Positions 8,945-16,456 of a stretch of DNA of 64,000 nucleotides are shown here, piece after piece. Below the pieces are notes generated by a model, which saw nothing but the letters and a program-made list of their open reading frames with translations, was not told where the DNA came from and made no database searches. Source of the stretch: Lysobacter changpingensis (GTDB lineage: Bacteria; Pseudomonadota; Gammaproteobacteria; Xanthomonadales; Xanthomonadaceae); assembly GCF_017308985.1 (NCBI RefSeq), contig NZ_JADWPE010000003.1, positions 310,001 through 374,000 of the forward strand, read 5' to 3'. Position 1 is the first letter of the stretch. Each line of letters opens with the position of its first letter. A program made the position numbers and the translations under genes.

Positions 8945-10006
8945 ATGCGCGGCACGCTCGCCGCCGTGGTTTTCGCGCTGGCCTGGCAGGCCGCGGGCGC
9001 GTTCGCCCAGCCGGTGTCCACGGGCGAAGTCATGACGATGCCCACGGGACTACGCGAGCGGCTGCATCGCGAAGTGCTGTACGACGACCCCGCGCCGCAC
9101 GAGCGCCTGGAACGCCTCGGCGTCTTCATGTTCGCGTCCGAAGGCCTGGGCATGACCTACGTGGAAACGGCGAACCTCACCGTGGCGCAGGCGTACGAGG
9201 CGCGCACGGCGAACTGCCTCACCTTCACCCTGCTCTTCCTCGCGCTGGCCAAGGAAGCGGGGCTGGAAGCGACGCCGCAGGAAATCGAACAGATCCTCGG
9301 TTTCCGCCAGGCCGACGGCACGCTGTACCTGAGCAACCACGTCAACGCCAGCGTGCGCGTGGGCTCGCGGCGCTACACGGTGGACGTGGCCGGCGACCAG
9401 ATCATCCAGCGCGATCGCCCGAAGCCGATCACCACCACGCGCCTCATCGCGCATTACTACAACAACCTCGCGGTCGAACGCCTCGCCGCCGGCGATTACC
9501 CCGCGGCGTCGTCGCTGCTGGACATGGCGATCGGTCTCGATCCCGCCTACGCCGGCTACTGGAGCAATGCCGGCGTCGTGCACACGCGCGGCGGCGATCC
9601 GGAAACCGGCCGGAACGACTATCGCCAGGCGCTGGCGCTCGACCCGGACAACACCAACGCGCTGTTCAACCTGGCCGGGCTCGCCGCGCGCACGGGCGAT
9701 CGCGCGCTGGAGGCCGAATACCGCAAGCGCCTGGCGAAGCTCGAACGCAACGATCCCTTCCACGCCTTCGTGCAGGCGCTGACCGCCGAGAACGCCGGCG
9801 ACCTGGCGCGCGCGACGCGCTTCTACCGCCGCGCGGTGGACCTGCGACCGCAGGAGCACCGCTTCCATTCCGCGCTCGCCAACGCCTACCTCAAGGCCGG
9901 CAAGACCGGGCTGGCGATCCGCTCGCTCGCCCGCGCGCAGGCACTCAGCAACGGCGACACCCACGCGGCCTACAGCGAGCGCCTGGATGCCCTGCGCGCC
10001 CGCTGA
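8945..10006 (+). CDS. Exported transglutaminase-like / TPR protein
   Basis: A 353-residue protein with a signal peptide (cleavage near AFA-QP, residue 21). The first half is a transglutaminase-like domain with a plausible Cys-His-Asp triad: Cys91 in TANCLTFTLL, His132 in LSNHVNAS and Asp147 in YTVDVAG. The second half (about 165-350) is a chain of tetratricopeptide repeats, for example DYPAASSLLDMAIGLDPAYAGYW and ARATRFYRRAVDLRPQEHRF. Proteins with this fusion are periplasmic or membrane-associated, and TPR parts usually bind other proteins. It may be a protease or crosslinking-type enzyme. The next gene starts 73 bases downstream, so co-transcription is possible. The biological role is unknown. 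Confidence 0.75.
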   Translation: MRGTLAAVVFALAWQAAGAFAQPVSTGEVMTMPTGLRERLHREVLYDDPAPHERLERLGVFMFASEGLGMTYVETANLTVAQAYEARTANCLTFTLLFLALAKEAGLEATPQEIEQILGFRQADGTLYLSNHVNASVRVGSRRYTVDVAGDQIIQRDRPKPITTTRLIAHYYNNLAVERLAAGDYPAASSLLDMAIGLDPAYAGYWSNAGVVHTRGGDPETGRNDYRQALALDPDNTNALFNLAGLAARTGDRALEAEYRKRLAKLERNDPFHAFVQALTAENAGDLARATRFYRRAVDLRPQEHRFHSALANAYLKAGKTGLAIRSLARAQALSNGDTHAAYSERLDALRAR

Positions 10007-11838: not shown

Positions 11839-13293
11839 TCAGAACGAAATCGGCACCCGCGCCGTCAACGTCATGTCCGGCGTATCGCGCGTCACGCCGA
11901 CGCCGAGTGCGACGTTGAGCGACCAGCGATCGCTGAAGCGGTACGTGCCGCCCAGCAGCAGCGTGCCGAGCGTGACGCGCACCGAACCCGGGCTTTCGCG
12001 GCCGTTCTGCTTGGTCTTGCCGACCAGGCTGGTGTCGTAGCCCAGGCTGATCGACGCCTTCTCGTTGAGCGCCAGGCCCATGCCGAGATTGAAGCCCCAG
12101 ATGTCGCCGGCCTGCACGTCGCCGAGGAATTCCTGTTCGCGCCCGAGCACGGTGCGCGAGACGTTGCTGCGTTCGAAGTTGTACAGATAGCTGAAGGTGC
12201 CGAAGAACACGACCGGATCGGACGGATACAGCCAGGTCACGCCCGGCTGGATCGCTTCGAAGCCGGTGCCGGTCGGCAGTTCCAGCGGAAGCCCGGTGCC
12301 GGTGGCGTTCTGAACGCAGCGCTGCACGCAGTCGGTGGTGACTTCGAACAGGTCCTTGCCGGTGCGGCTCTTGTAGCGCAGCCAGCCGATATAGAACGCC
12401 TTGTCCGGGCCGCCGCGATTGAGCTGGTAGCGCGCGGTCGCCTCGATGTCGCCCATGCCGTGGCCGCTGGCGTTGAACACGCGGTCCTGCGCCGAGCCGG
12501 TGAAGATCTCGCGGCTGACGGTGTCGCCGTTGAGGTAGACATACGGCACCTTCGCCTCGATCTCGAATCGGCCGCCGATGCCCATGCGCCCGGTGATCGT
12601 GCCGACGCCGGAGGTGGTCTTCACCTGGCGCACGTCGATGAGGCCGATCAGGATGGCCGGGATCACCGTGTAACCGACCAGCGCCACGCGATCGTTCGCC
12701 GAATAGCCGTATTGCAGCGAGGGTTCGAGGATGAACTGGCCGGCCGGCGTGAGCACGCCGGGCTGGTCGAAGATCTGCGCGACTTCCGGTGGGCGCATCG
12801 CCGATTCCGGCGCCTGCCCGACCGGCTTTCGTCCCTGCTGCGGTTGTTGCGGCGCGGGCGCCTGTTGCGCCTGGCGCTGCGCGGGCGGCGCGGGCTGCAC
12901 GGCGGCGGGCGCCTGCTGCGCGAGCGTCGGCAGCACCGTACCCGGTGCGGCACCGGCGCCGCGTTCGGCGTCCAGGCGTTCCTCGTCGAGCGCGCGTTGC
13001 AGGTTCGCCACCGCCTGTTCCTGCTGCGCGAGCGAATCGCGCAGTTCCTCGAGCCGGCGCGTCTGCGCGTTGATCTCGCGCTGCAGATCGTCGAGCGAAC
13101 GCCCCTCCGCGACGGGCGCTGCCGGCGCGACCTGCGTCGCGGCCGGAGGCGCCCCGCCCACCTGAGGCTGCGCAGCCGGACGGGCCGGCTCCAGTCCCTG
13201 CCACTGGTCCTGCGCATGGGCCGTCGCGGCGGCGGCGAGCCACAGGCACGGGGCGAGCATCAGGCGGCGGGGCAACTGCGGCGTCCTTCTCAT
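11839..13293 (-). CDS. FapF-like outer-membrane beta-barrel with N-terminal coiled coil
   Basis: A 484-residue exported protein. Order of parts: signal peptide (to about residue 27, AHA-QD); a Pro/Ala linker; a coiled coil at about 65-110 (LDDLQREINAQTRRLEELRD and following); a Gln/Pro/Ala-rich linker at 111-165; then about 310 residues of alternating polar/hydrophobic strands ending in TARVPISF, with the C-terminal Phe typical of outer-membrane barrels. The part before the barrel, PPEVAQIFDQPGVLTPAGQF, may act as a plug. Pseudomonas FapF, the export pore for Fap amyloid, is likewise a coiled coil followed by a trimeric barrel. It is the last gene of a five-gene cluster, 80 bases after its neighbour. 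Barrel is firm; the FapF role is inferred from context. Confidence 0.75.
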   Translation of the reverse strand: MRRTPQLPRRLMLAPCLWLAAAATAHAQDQWQGLEPARPAAQPQVGGAPPAATQVAPAAPVAEGRSLDDLQREINAQTRRLEELRDSLAQQEQAVANLQRALDEERLDAERGAGAAPGTVLPTLAQQAPAAVQPAPPAQRQAQQAPAPQQPQQGRKPVGQAPESAMRPPEVAQIFDQPGVLTPAGQFILEPSLQYGYSANDRVALVGYTVIPAILIGLIDVRQVKTTSGVGTITGRMGIGGRFEIEAKVPYVYLNGDTVSREIFTGSAQDRVFNASGHGMGDIEATARYQLNRGGPDKAFYIGWLRYKSRTGKDLFEVTTDCVQRCVQNATGTGLPLELPTGTGFEAIQPGVTWLYPSDPVVFFGTFSYLYNFERSNVSRTVLGREQEFLGDVQAGDIWGFNLGMGLALNEKASISLGYDTSLVGKTKQNGRESPGSVRVTLGTLLLGGTYRFSDRWSLNVALGVGVTRDTPDMTLTARVPISF

Positions 13294-13373: not shown

Positions 13374-13898
13374 TCAGGGAGCGGTCGCGGTCACCATCGC
13401 GTTGTGCAGCGTGGACTGGGTGTTCAGGTCCTGGAACGCCTGCAGCGTGTCGACGCCGACGTTCACCGTGGTCAGCGCGCGGATGTCCTGTCCGTCGAGC
13501 GTGTTCTGGATCACCACGCCGCCCGGCAACCCGCCCGGCTGGAACGTGTTGCCTCCGCCGACCTGCACCACCACGCCGTCGTTGAAGCGCTGCAGCTCGC
13601 GCGCCTGCGCGGTGGTCATGCGGCCCACGTCGGGAATCTGCACGCGCGTGGTCGCCATCAGTTCGCCGTTGACGAACACCGCGCGCTCGATGCCGAACGA
13701 CAGCGCCATGCCGCCGTCGGTCATGAAGCCGCCGCGCATGTCGTCCAGGCGCGCGGGGTCGATGGCGACCCATTCCGGCCCCAGCACCTCCGCCGGTGGC
13801 GCCGCGAACGCCGGCGCGCACCACGCCAGCATCGCGATGAAAACGTACTTGAGCCGAACACGTTCGATCCGCCTGTGATGCAGCGAGGGCGATGTCAT
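13374..13898 (-). CDS. Small exported protein of the Fap-like cluster (FapE position) with double-Gly motif
   Basis: A 174-residue exported protein with a signal peptide ending near AFA-AP (residue 32). Twenty-five residues later comes IDPARLDDMRGG, with Gly-Gly at 56-57 and hydrophobic residues at -4, -7 and -12. That is the spacing of double-glycine leaders cleaved by C39 peptidases. The rest is Gly/Asn/Val/Thr-rich and ends in STLHNAMVTATAP. The ending resembles that of the 134-residue protein two genes upstream. GGAGGG precedes the ATG. It lies between the C39 peptidase gene and the barrel gene, the position of fapE in Pseudomonas. I do not recognise a named family. It is probably a secreted matrix or fibre component. 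Confidence 0.65.
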   Translation of the reverse strand: MTSPSLHHRRIERVRLKYVFIAMLAWCAPAFAAPPAEVLGPEWVAIDPARLDDMRGGFMTDGGMALSFGIERAVFVNGELMATTRVQIPDVGRMTTAQARELQRFNDGVVVQVGGGNTFQPGGLPGGVVIQNTLDGQDIRALTTVNVGVDTLQAFQDLNTQSTLHNAMVTATAP

Positions 13899-13912
13899 CG
13901 TCCGACCCTCCG

Positions 13913-14614
13913 TCAGATGTCGCCCGGGCCGCGCCGGGGCGTCACGATGTTGTAGAGGCTGTCGCGGGCGATGCCCGCATCCAGCGGCGCGGGAGGCGCC
14001 GTGCGCCAGTCGCGCGCCATGTTGAACTGCGCCCGGTCGCGGCGGTTGTGCACCACGAACAGGATGCGGTTGTCCCACAGTTTCTCGAAACGCGAACGCG
14101 GCATCGCGCGCGTGCCGCGTGCGGGGTCGCCCAGCAGCACGCGATCGTTGCGGAAGCCCTTCACCACCACGAAGTGGCGGTAGCCGCGATCGTTGAGCAG
14201 CACGATCGCCGGCAGGCCCTCGGCGACGAGCTTGTCGAGCGGCTGTTCGAAGCCGTCGGCCTCGAAGCCCAGCGAACGCAGGTAGCGGCGCATGTCCAGC
14301 AGCGAGAACCCGCGCTGGCGGATCTTCGCCTGGTCGCCGGTTTCGTACATGCGCATGAACACTTCGGCCTCGGTGACCGGATGGCCGTACTGGTAGGTCA
14401 GCAGCGTCGCGGTCGCGGCCGAGCCGCAGCTGAAGTCGTACTGCTGCCGCACGGTGGTCTTGAAGCGCGCTTCCTTGAGGCTCGTGACGCGCAGCGTGTA
14501 GCTGCCGTTCGGTGGCGCGCGCACGTCCACCGTCCCGGCCTGCACGAGGCCGGAAACCAGGATCCACGCCGAAGCCGCGATCCACGCACGGCGCCGGAAT
14601 GTACGCAGGCTCAT
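13913..14614 (-). CDS. C39-family cysteine peptidase, exported (FapD-like)
   Basis: A 233-residue protein with an N-terminal signal or anchor segment (AWIAASAWILVSGLVQAG). The C39 catalytic set is visible: Gln58 and Cys63 in RQQYDFSCGSAATATLL, His147 in GYRHFVVVKGF and Asp163 in LLGDPARG. It has no ABC-transporter domain, so it is a stand-alone peptidase like FapD. C39 enzymes cleave after Gly-Gly in leader peptides, and both small exported proteins in this cluster carry such a motif. Its ATG overlaps the stop of the upstream gene by 4 bases (ATGA), which implies translational coupling. The peptidase call is firm; the substrates are inferred. Confidence 0.85.
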   Translation of the reverse strand: MSLRTFRRRAWIAASAWILVSGLVQAGTVDVRAPPNGSYTLRVTSLKEARFKTTVRQQYDFSCGSAATATLLTYQYGHPVTEAEVFMRMYETGDQAKIRQRGFSLLDMRRYLRSLGFEADGFEQPLDKLVAEGLPAIVLLNDRGYRHFVVVKGFRNDRVLLGDPARGTRAMPRSRFEKLWDNRILFVVHNRRDRAQFNMARDWRTAPPAPLDAGIARDSLYNIVTPRRGPGDI

Positions 14615-15015
14615 GGGCCCGCGTCCGCGAACTTCACGTTCACGATCATCGCGTTCTGGATCAGCACGTTCGCGCCGGTGTTCTGGATAACCGTGGAAAT
14701 GCCGCTGGCGCTGGCGAACGAACCGCCCGCGACGGAGTTGCTGCCGGTCAGCACGTCGTCGGCGATCGCGTCCTCGACGCGGCCGTTGACGAGGATGTCG
14801 TTGTCGACGAGTTGGGCTTCGCCGCCGCGCAGGTCGGCAAGCGCGGACGGATCGACCGCGGCGCCGAACGCGGCGTCGGGTGCGTCCGCCTCGTCGAGGA
14901 CGACGGGCTGGGTTGCCGTGGGCTCGCGAATTTCCTGCGCCCAGGCCACACCGGCGACGATCCACATCACCACGCCCGCCAGACCGCCCAATGCGATGGA
15001 ACGATTGCGTTGCAT
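14611..15015 (-). CDS. Small exported protein of the Fap-like cluster with double-Gly motif
   Basis: A 134-residue exported protein with a signal peptide ending at AWA-Q (residue 26). The segment VDPSALADLRGG ends in Gly-Gly at 64-65 with hydrophobic residues at -4, -7 and -12, as in double-glycine leaders. The remaining 69 residues are Asn/Ala/Val-rich and contain IQNTGANVLIQNAMIV, which resembles the C-terminus of the Gly-rich protein one gene upstream (QNSGFSSLIQQGITV). The start at 15015 puts AAGGAG 7 bases away; the ATG at 15021 is too close. It could be a minor fibre subunit, nucleator or chaperone. I do not recognise a named family. Confidence 0.65.
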   Translation of the reverse strand: MQRNRSIALGGLAGVVMWIVAGVAWAQEIREPTATQPVVLDEADAPDAAFGAAVDPSALADLRGGEAQLVDNDILVNGRVEDAIADDVLTGSNSVAGGSFASASGISTVIQNTGANVLIQNAMIVNVKFADAGP

Positions 15016-15148
15016 CGTCATGCTCCTTGCCCTTCGCTTCCTCCCTGCGCCATCGCTGGAGTCCCGCCGGCGCGGACGCCGGCGGGAATGCGATGCGCAT
15101 CCGGTGACGCATCGGAGCGGGGGCTCCGATGCGTCGAGGGGAAGGCGC

Positions 15149-16456
15149 TTACGGGCCTACGGTCAGGTTGGCCTGGACGGTGATGCCCTGCTGGATCAGC
15201 GAGGAGAAGCCGCTGTTCTGCGCGGCCACCGTGATGCCCGCTGCGCCGCTGGCGGTGCCGGTCATGGTCGAGGACATATCGAATGTGCCCGCATCGACCA
15301 TGTTGCTGCCGCCCGCGCCGCCGGTGCCGCCGGTTGCGCCGTTGCCGACGCCGCCGTTGCCTACGCCACCGTTGCCGGTGCCGCCCGCGCCGCCGTCGCC
15401 GCCGGTCGCGCCGGCCGCCGCCACCGCGCCGTCACCGGCCGTGGCCGAGCCGTTGCTCGCGCTCGCGTCCGCGCTGCCATTGCTGGCATCGCCGTTGGTG
15501 GCCGAGCCACCCGCGCCGCCGCCGCCCGCACTGGCGGTCACGGTGCCGCTGGCACCGCCGTCGCCCGCGGTCGCGCCGGACGTGCCGGTGCCCGCGCCTG
15601 CGGTCGCGGTGGAGGTCGAGCTGGGCGCGCCGCCCGCACCGCCTGCGCCGCCGGTGCCCGTCCCGCCCGCACCGCCCGCGCCGCCGGTGCCGTCGTTGCC
15701 GGCATCGTTGCCGCCGCCACCGCCGCCGCCGTCGTTGCCGCCGGCGCCGCCGCCACCACCACCGTCGCTGCCGCCCGCCAGCGAACCGGACGCGGCCACG
15801 CTTGCGCCGCCGGCATCGCCGCTGTCGTTGTCGGTGTCGCCGCCACGGCCGCTGCGGATGTCGTAGACATCGCCGCCGCGTCCGCCGCGTGCCGCGGTCG
15901 CATCGCCGATCGTCGCGTCGCCGACGGTCGCGTCGCCGGAGGTCGCGCTGCCGTTCACCGCGGAGCCGCCGGAGCCGCCATCGCCGCCCGAGCCACCGTC
16001 GCCGCCATTGCCGCCAGCGCCGCCGTTGCCGTCGCCGCCGTAACCGTCGCCGCCATAGCCATCGCCGCCGGAACCACCGGAACCGCCATTGGCGTTGCCG
16101 TTGTTGGTCGCGACGTTGCCGATGCCATAGGTGCGCACGTCATACACGGCGCCTTCGAGCACGGTCGATGCGACGATCGTGCTGGAGGTCGAGCTGAACG
16201 TGCTGGAGTCGGTGTAGGTGTTGGTGGCGGTGCCACCGCTGTGCGCCGCAGCGGAGCCCGCGTCGGCCGTGGCGTCGCCATCGTTGCCGCGGTTGTCGCC
16301 GGTGCTGTTGTCGGATGCATCGATCGGGACGTTGACGTTGGCGAGGATGTCGTCGCCCTCGCCGCCGTTGCCGTTGGTCTGTTGTGCCATCGCCTGGCCG
16401 CCGAGACCAAGGCCGATGAGCACCGCTGTTGCCATCAAGCTGGTACGAATGCGCAT
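15149..16456 (-). CDS. Large Gly-rich low-complexity exported protein (candidate fibre subunit)
   Basis: A 435-residue exported protein with a signal peptide MRIRTSLMATAVLIGLGLGG, cleavage near AMA-QQ (24/25). Residues 25-115 are Asn/Asp/Ser/Thr-rich. About 115-375 is a Gly/Ala/Asp/Ser/Asn low-complexity array (GGSGG, GGDG, GGAGG units), with a repeated VYDVR / VYDIR element. The last 50 residues form a distinct conserved-looking tail with QNSGFSSLIQQGITVQANL. I see no Cys, Trp or Lys. AAAGGAG precedes the ATG. It is the first gene of the cluster, the place of the main amyloid subunit in Fap. Its repeats are not the Fap repeat, so the fibre role is inference. Confidence 0.7.
   Translation of the reverse strand: MRIRTSLMATAVLIGLGLGGQAMAQQTNGNGGEGDDILANVNVPIDASDNSTGDNRGNDGDATADAGSAAAHSGGTATNTYTDSSTFSSTSSTIVASTVLEGAVYDVRTYGIGNVATNNGNANGGSGGSGGDGYGGDGYGGDGNGGAGGNGGDGGSGGDGGSGGSAVNGSATSGDATVGDATIGDATAARGGRGGDVYDIRSGRGGDTDNDSGDAGGASVAASGSLAGGSDGGGGGGAGGNDGGGGGGGNDAGNDGTGGAGGAGGTGTGGAGGAGGAPSSTSTATAGAGTGTSGATAGDGGASGTVTASAGGGGAGGSATNGDASNGSADASASNGSATAGDGAVAAAGATGGDGGAGGTGNGGVGNGGVGNGATGGTGGAGGSNMVDAGTFDMSSTMTGTASGAAGITVAAQNSGFSSLIQQGITVQANLTVGP

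Follow-up and report, generated by a model that had tools for sequence, protein, structure and literature searches.

Double-glycine-type leader motifs in two exported partners of a stand-alone C39 peptidase within a putative Fap-like operon of Lysobacter changpingensis

A 64,000-nt stretch of the Lysobacter changpingensis genome (the window; all coordinates below are positions in it) carries a stand-alone C39 peptidase gene flanked by genes for two small exported proteins, each with a double-glycine-type leader motif behind a Sec-like signal. Five genes are found here on the minus strand in the order 435-amino acid (aa) protein, 136-aa protein, C39 peptidase, 174-aa protein and outer-membrane barrel, with intergenic gaps of 127, -4, 14 and 80 bases, and because of these gaps they likely form one operon. 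The peptidase gene (13913..14614, minus strand) encodes a 233-aa protein with an N-terminal signal and overlaps the 136-aa gene by 4 bases. The 136-aa protein (14611..15021, minus strand) has a Sec signal, one IQNTGxNVLIQN core and the leader motif VDPSALADLRGG at residues 56-67 (14821..14856, minus strand). Its length is 136 aa from the first ATG and 134 aa from the second Met, the numbering used in the first-pass annotation of this DNA, where the motif spans residues 54-65. The 174-aa protein (13374..13898, minus strand) sits between the peptidase and the barrel in the position of fapE; it has a Sec signal and the leader motif IDPARLDDMRGG at residues 46-57 (13728..13763, minus strand). Signal peptides, here termed Sec-like, were called by a crude custom script and not on the basis of SignalP. 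A scan for promoters and terminators found nothing above chance and no promoter was placed; an Rfam search gave nothing above threshold.

Both motifs have a hydrophobic residue at -12 (V or I), L at -7, L or M at -4 and Gly-Gly at -2 and -1, the pattern of a double-glycine leader (hydrophobic at -12, -7 and -4 plus GG). Compared with the substrate consensus of ATP-binding cassette (ABC) exporters, L(-12)xxxE(-8)L(-7)xxxxG(-2)G(-1) (PMC6959990), they fit at -12 (hydrophobic), -7, -2 and -1 and are without E(-8). A strict pattern (LIVMF at -12, -7 and -4 plus GG) was found in 2 of 270 control Sec-like open reading frames (ORFs) with codon-position bias, in 2/318 without that filter, and on average in 3.8/270 after shuffling. 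Among homologues it was present in 17/19 of the 136-aa family and 18/18 of the 174-aa family (35/37 overall; three of 40, one from the 136-aa family and two from the 174-aa family, were dropped because no signal-peptide start was callable). RGG is visible in 20/20 related loci for both proteins. In the 136-aa family (16 aligned) only L61, R65, G66 and G67 are invariant before residue 68 besides Met1, and in the 174-aa family (14 aligned) L51, R55, G56 and G57 are invariant before residue 58; the leader is thus invariant in L, R, G and G inside otherwise variable N-terminal regions. Leader-only profiles of the 136-aa, 174-aa and FapE families match one another with probabilities of 97, 94 and 72%, while body profiles without the leader show no detectable match between the three families. 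The leader is an element shared by otherwise non-matching proteins.

The peptidase matches PF03412 in Pfam (E=1.3e-22), and in NCBIfam it matches FapD (E=1.9e-41) and FilB (E=1.9e-39) about equally. It has a hydrophobic N-terminus and the residues Gln57, Cys63, His147 and Asp163; these Gln, Cys, His and Asp are invariant across 22 aligned peptidases. The C39 fold and catalytic residues of C39 leader peptidases are present, and the ABC-transporter fusion of such enzymes is absent from this 233-aa stand-alone protein. These results bear out what the first-pass annotation had read at the locus, namely Gly-Gly motifs with hydrophobic residues at -4, -7 and -12 in both proteins, a neighbouring C39 peptidase with its own signal segment, and one leader shared by the two Sec-like partners that flank it. 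The peptidase is present in 12/12 genomes of the genus and in 75/197 genomes of the family (E<=1e-15), where it falls into two classes, one of at least 64% identity and one of about 38-46%. We took 20 first-class loci from the genus and family searches and 20 second-class loci from the family search. The 136-aa, C39, 174-aa and barrel genes were all found in 20/20 first-class loci, and in 13/20 the script also recovered a protein related to the 435-aa one (at the other loci it printed a different ORF or nothing). The second class is fap. NCBIfam searches with ten of its proteins, drawn from three loci, matched FapA, C, C, D, E and F (L062), FapB, C and E (L057) and FapC (L074), all under the cut-offs. 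A second C39 domain occurs in the genome of the window (L002, G000:C3:214623-214991) within an open frame of 736 residues that may encode an ABC exporter.

The last gene encodes a 484-aa FapF-like outer-membrane barrel (11839..13293, minus strand), which matches PF13557 in Pfam and FapF in NCBIfam (E=1.2e-41) and is likely the secretion channel; its residues ~66-111 gave only weak coiled-coil-type matches (E 0.03-0.04). The 435-aa protein (15149..16456, minus strand) is a Gly-rich protein with a Sec signal in which no leader motif was seen. Its body is of low complexity, its C-terminus (..AQNSGFxSLIQQGxTVQANLTVGP) is kept in the relatives found, and it is likely a major fibre or matrix subunit. 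The 136-aa protein is possibly a minor subunit. The window peptidase scores 141.8 bits against the FapD model NF058616 (cut-off 330) and the barrel 142.9 bits against the FapF model NF058560 (cut-off 700). These cut-offs are strict and fap-type loci miss them too (FapD 202.7 bits in L062 and 197-281 in six others; FapF 339.5 bits in L062, the one locus scored), so a more telling difference is that Pfam and NCBIfam give no match at E<=1 for the 435-, 136- and 174-aa proteins, whereas FapA, B, C and E matches are obtained from fap loci in this family. The amyloid repeats of FapB and FapC are likewise not detected in the 435- and 136-aa proteins by NCBIfam at E<=1. The FapE model, run over 369 genomes of the class, matched 15 at E<=1e-5, none over the cut-off and none in the genome of the window. 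Profile comparison of the 174-aa family with FapE gives a match with a probability of 94.5%; once the N-terminal part through the motif is cut away, the bodies alone reach 3.4% (13 columns), and the match therefore rests on the leader. A fold search with the predicted model of the 174-aa protein (predicted local distance difference test, pLDDT, 67.6) gave no match at E<=0.001. Judged by sequence, the 174-aa protein is FapE-like in its position, its leader and a short FGI-type stretch; homology of the body is not part of the basis. The cluster appears to be a divergent Fap-like secretion operon (functional amyloid type), and it is called Fap-like rather than fap proper because no FapA, B, C or E model matches. 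This Fap-like nature is an addition to the first-pass annotation, which lacked it.

The cluster shares with Fap an exported C39 peptidase, a leader-bearing protein and a FapF-like barrel in the order D-E-F, as well as QN-rich exported proteins upstream. It differs in that the 174-aa protein carries RGG where FapE carries RGR, in having an additional leader carrier, the 136-aa protein, as well as the Gly-rich 435-aa protein, and in the absence of FapA/B/C/E matches. As to the Fil system of Acinetobacter, the model of the stand-alone C39 protein FilB scores the window peptidase nearly as the FapD model does, and the FilC model also matches the barrel (E=1.3e-9); however, the peptidase reaches 135.7 bits against the FilB cut-off of 475, and the exported neighbour of the A. 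baumannii C39 peptidase, which we take to be FilA, has another leader (..LSAATGQDG). Double-glycine leaders of bacteriocins and peptide pheromones, cut by the C39 domains of ABC transporters (PCAT1, ComA, LahT), have the same hydrophobic -12, -7 and -4 residues plus GG, and these domains have the same fold and catalytic residues. In contrast to those systems, the window leader sits after a Sec signal with a fixed R(-3) and no E(-8), and the peptidase is exported and not ABC-fused. Elsewhere in the window, positions 8945-10006 encode an exported protein in which Pfam finds TPR repeats and, below its cut-off, a transglutaminase-like stretch.

We looked for the leader in FapE at 80 named loci, the best 80 of 592 stretches confirmed in a contig scan, all around FapD-like peptidases (Pseudomonas, Stenotrophomonas, Halomonas and others). 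An RGR leader lies just downstream of the peptidase in 79/80; in the 80th locus the sequence stops 253 bases past the peptidase. The fap loci of the window family have a FapE leader in 19 of 20 (12 RGR, 5 SGK, 2 SGR; none in L071). FapE keeps L..[LM]RG with R or K in the position of the second glycine, and it fits the ABC-exporter consensus at -12, -8, -7 and -2 with R at -1; E(-8) is present in 74/76 scored named loci. Since FapE shares the leader and has RGR, the wider signature drops the second glycine and would read hydrophobic(-12), L/M(-7), mostly L/M(-4) and R-G(-2), with the second glycine varying. A position-specific scoring matrix trained on FapE leaders proved too narrow, with its R at -1 and Y/F at +1, to serve for other proteins, and simple patterns replaced it; upstream proteins over its 99% control threshold numbered 1/48 in first-class loci, 1/70 in family fap loci, 10/101 in the wide set described below, 2/22 in plasmid loci and 11/251 in named loci.

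Two such patterns were used beside other stand-alone C39 peptidases, pattern A, written after the first-class and FapE leaders had been seen, and pattern B, written after the wide and plasmid loci. Of the 40 loci in the wide set (further gammaproteobacterial loci, many of them fap), 31 had a Sec-like neighbour matching either pattern; 54/133 neighbours matched, versus 11/318 control ORFs (p=1.7e-22), and loci from a plasmid collection gave 6/10 loci and 8/29 neighbours. These counts are partly post hoc because the patterns were written after the loci had been seen. A phylum search supplied a test set of 20 stretches, with a pattern match in 14/20 loci and 19/69 neighbours (p=7e-9); as FapE had shaped pattern A, the fap loci in this set are not an independent test of it. 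Two test-set loci (L280, L281) overlap named loci already seen (L176, L188); without them the result was 12/18 loci and 17/60 neighbours (p=1.7e-8). Further overlapping pairs across sets are L111/L220, L064/L241 and L075/L237; in the last pair a locus from the window family (L075) coincides in part with one of Stenotrophomonas maltophilia (L237), which places the window genome in the Stenotrophomonas family. The G/A at -2 is built into both patterns and its constancy there is circular, but it is seen pattern-free elsewhere (the 20/20 RGG). No C39 was found in 20 control stretches. Near forms occur among the test-set misses, e.g., LDGMRGG (L276) and LDAQRGG (L289).

Some of these loci have features of their own. 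L140 has four small exported proteins upstream of its C39 (2638-4422), their motifs including LSDADMDGVTAG, and L132 has three similar ones. An Acinetobacter plasmid (L168:1004-4191) carries three paralogous exported proteins (..LSRQEMKDTQGA..) before its C39 peptidase. In L292, a distant member of the phylum, a Y/G-rich exported protein with YYGYY runs adjoins the C39 gene. Exported proteins at the FapA position in L057, L063, L064, L068, L072 and L073 have an ELSDxEF-like stretch, perhaps a second FapD contact. Two records filed as plasmids (L167 and L169, 4.9 and 4.1 Mb) look like chromosomes.

From the motif and its conservation, the gene order, the peptidase fold and catalytic residues, the FapF relationship and the FapE leader we infer the following route. 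All five products would be exported by Sec, as their hydrophobic N-termini suggest. In the periplasm the C39 peptidase would bind the leader hydrophobic(-12)....L(-7)..[LM](-4)-R-G-G of the 136-aa and 174-aa proteins, just as in the cytosol a C39 domain fused to an ABC transporter binds its double-glycine leader. It would then cut at Gly-Gly, between the two glycines or behind the second. Once trimmed, these proteins, together with the Gly-rich 435-aa protein, would be secreted by way of the FapF-like barrel and, outside the cell, build or anchor a fibre or matrix. Recognition of the leader in both proteins is likely and cutting at GG is plausible; that the leader is used in the periplasm in this way before secretion through the barrel is, in our judgment, probably correct.

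Several observations weigh against this route or narrow it. The E(-8) of the published consensus is replaced by A and R in the window motifs. Upstream proteins alone are weaker in the test set (7/48, p=4.5e-3; 7/41, p=1.9e-3, without overlaps) and not enriched in the fap loci of the window family (4/70, p=0.28). No pattern match was found in 9/40 wide, 4/10 plasmid and 6/20 test-set loci. All p-values given are too small, because the neighbours at one locus are relatives of those at others. The second glycine also varies. We chose 136-type proteins outside the family by their C-terminal core and picked their leaders by pattern, with a pick in 18 loci (the one in L277 is visibly wrong, the true leader being LDQQRGG; L165 gave none). 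The residue at -2 is G in 13 and A in 5, and that at -1 is G in 6, R in 4, K in 3, M in 2, and T, Q and L in one each, the single L being the doubtful pick. The FapE residue at -1 is R in 76/76 scored named loci and R or K in the fap loci of the window family.

The first-pass annotation, which predicted periplasmic processing at Gly-Gly, had proposed a motif search in homologous clusters and had named homologues with the peptidase and without GG as evidence to the contrary. The search upholds RGG in 20/20 for both families, and strict GG is not general beyond them. Such homologues do exist in part (FapE with R/K; distant 136-type proteins with G, R, K, M, T or Q), which speaks against strict GG; as the second glycine varies, the scissile bond may lie after the first Gly. 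The interpretation as a whole stands in that the leader is shared and conserved and related motifs recur beside stand-alone C39 peptidases in the test set, and does not hold for strict Gly-Gly as a general rule. At the cut site the C39 cleft leaves very little room (PMC6959990), hence two readings of the bond. A cut behind the first Gly (R-G|x) would bring the leader forms under one rule; alternatively, the cut may come after GG in the window type, with docking and no cutting in FapE.

Docking without cutting might apply throughout, with the leader as a recognition tag and the peptidase holding its partners unfolded and handing them to the barrel, as C39-like domains do in some type I systems; cutting would be absent or secondary. 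This would explain R/K at -1 in FapE, where G(-1) is lost, and some C39 subsets are described as purely chaperones (PMC6173800). However, the Gln, Cys, His and Asp are invariant, the C38A mutation of FapD abolishes secretion (PMC5557850) and the window family itself keeps full GG, and we regard docking alone as unlikely. Slightly less likely still, the motif could belong to a folded domain, as its conserved N-terminal edge, or be a barrel contact, the peptidase acting elsewhere, e.g., on the FapF-like barrel. The 174-aa family and FapE do stay conserved past the motif ([YF]......FG[IV]), and residues 41-60 of the 174-aa model are moderately confident (pLDDT ~81), which also fits a structural N-terminus; both points count against the preferred route. 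Cleavage of the FapF linker has been proposed (PMC5557850). Against a domain edge, the 136-aa family has the same leader on a body without detectable match, and related motifs occur in small exported proteins beside other C39 peptidases. Accident in Gly-rich exported proteins of a high-GC genome, compatible with the pattern in about 1% of control and shuffled Sec-like ORFs, is next to negligible given RGG in 20/20 relatives of two proteins, since such conservation makes chance very unlikely.

Action of a C39 peptidase in the periplasm, as in the route we prefer, is known in kind from the published Fap work, and a periplasmic C39 peptidase as such is not new. FapD was placed in the periplasm in 2017, and its Cys38 was needed for FapC secretion; the same study saw no peptides from the first ~70 residues of FapE and described the Fap proteins as without canonical C39 sequences, though FapE has GG/GA motifs (PMC5557850). 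A 2013 survey has Stenotrophomonas and Rhodanobacter among its fap trees (PMC3792158), and a 2016 review noted GG in FapF (PMC5135000). In 2018 the FapD substrate was called undetermined and co-localised fapD and fapF were reported from five more phyla (PMC6173800); a 2025 review presents processing of the FapE N-terminus as a supposed function of FapD (PMC12822426). In the literature searched (main texts, largely open literature) we found no published report of this FapE leader, and the leader signature, the second leader-bearing partner and a divergent operon with full GG were likewise not found in print there.

FapD is needed for Fap secretion, and its relative in the window has two candidate substrates with full double-glycine leaders. 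We give about even chances to a broader reading, in which stand-alone periplasmic C39 peptidases across Pseudomonadota (FapD, FilB and the window type) read a common post-signal leader, hydrophobic(-12)...[LM](-7)...[GA](-2), on otherwise unrelated exported cargo that includes FapE, the 136-aa type, the small ..LSDADMDGVTAG.. proteins and the Acinetobacter C39 neighbours. If this is true, double-glycine-type processing would generally follow Sec export as a second step of maturation that runs outside the cytosol with no ABC transporter involved, extending it from cytosolic ABC exporters to a two-step route of Sec and periplasm. FapE would then be the long-sought FapD substrate via its RGR leader. 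The nearly invariant FapE leader, reached through the window operon, names the residues to test, and the question of the FapD substrate becomes testable.
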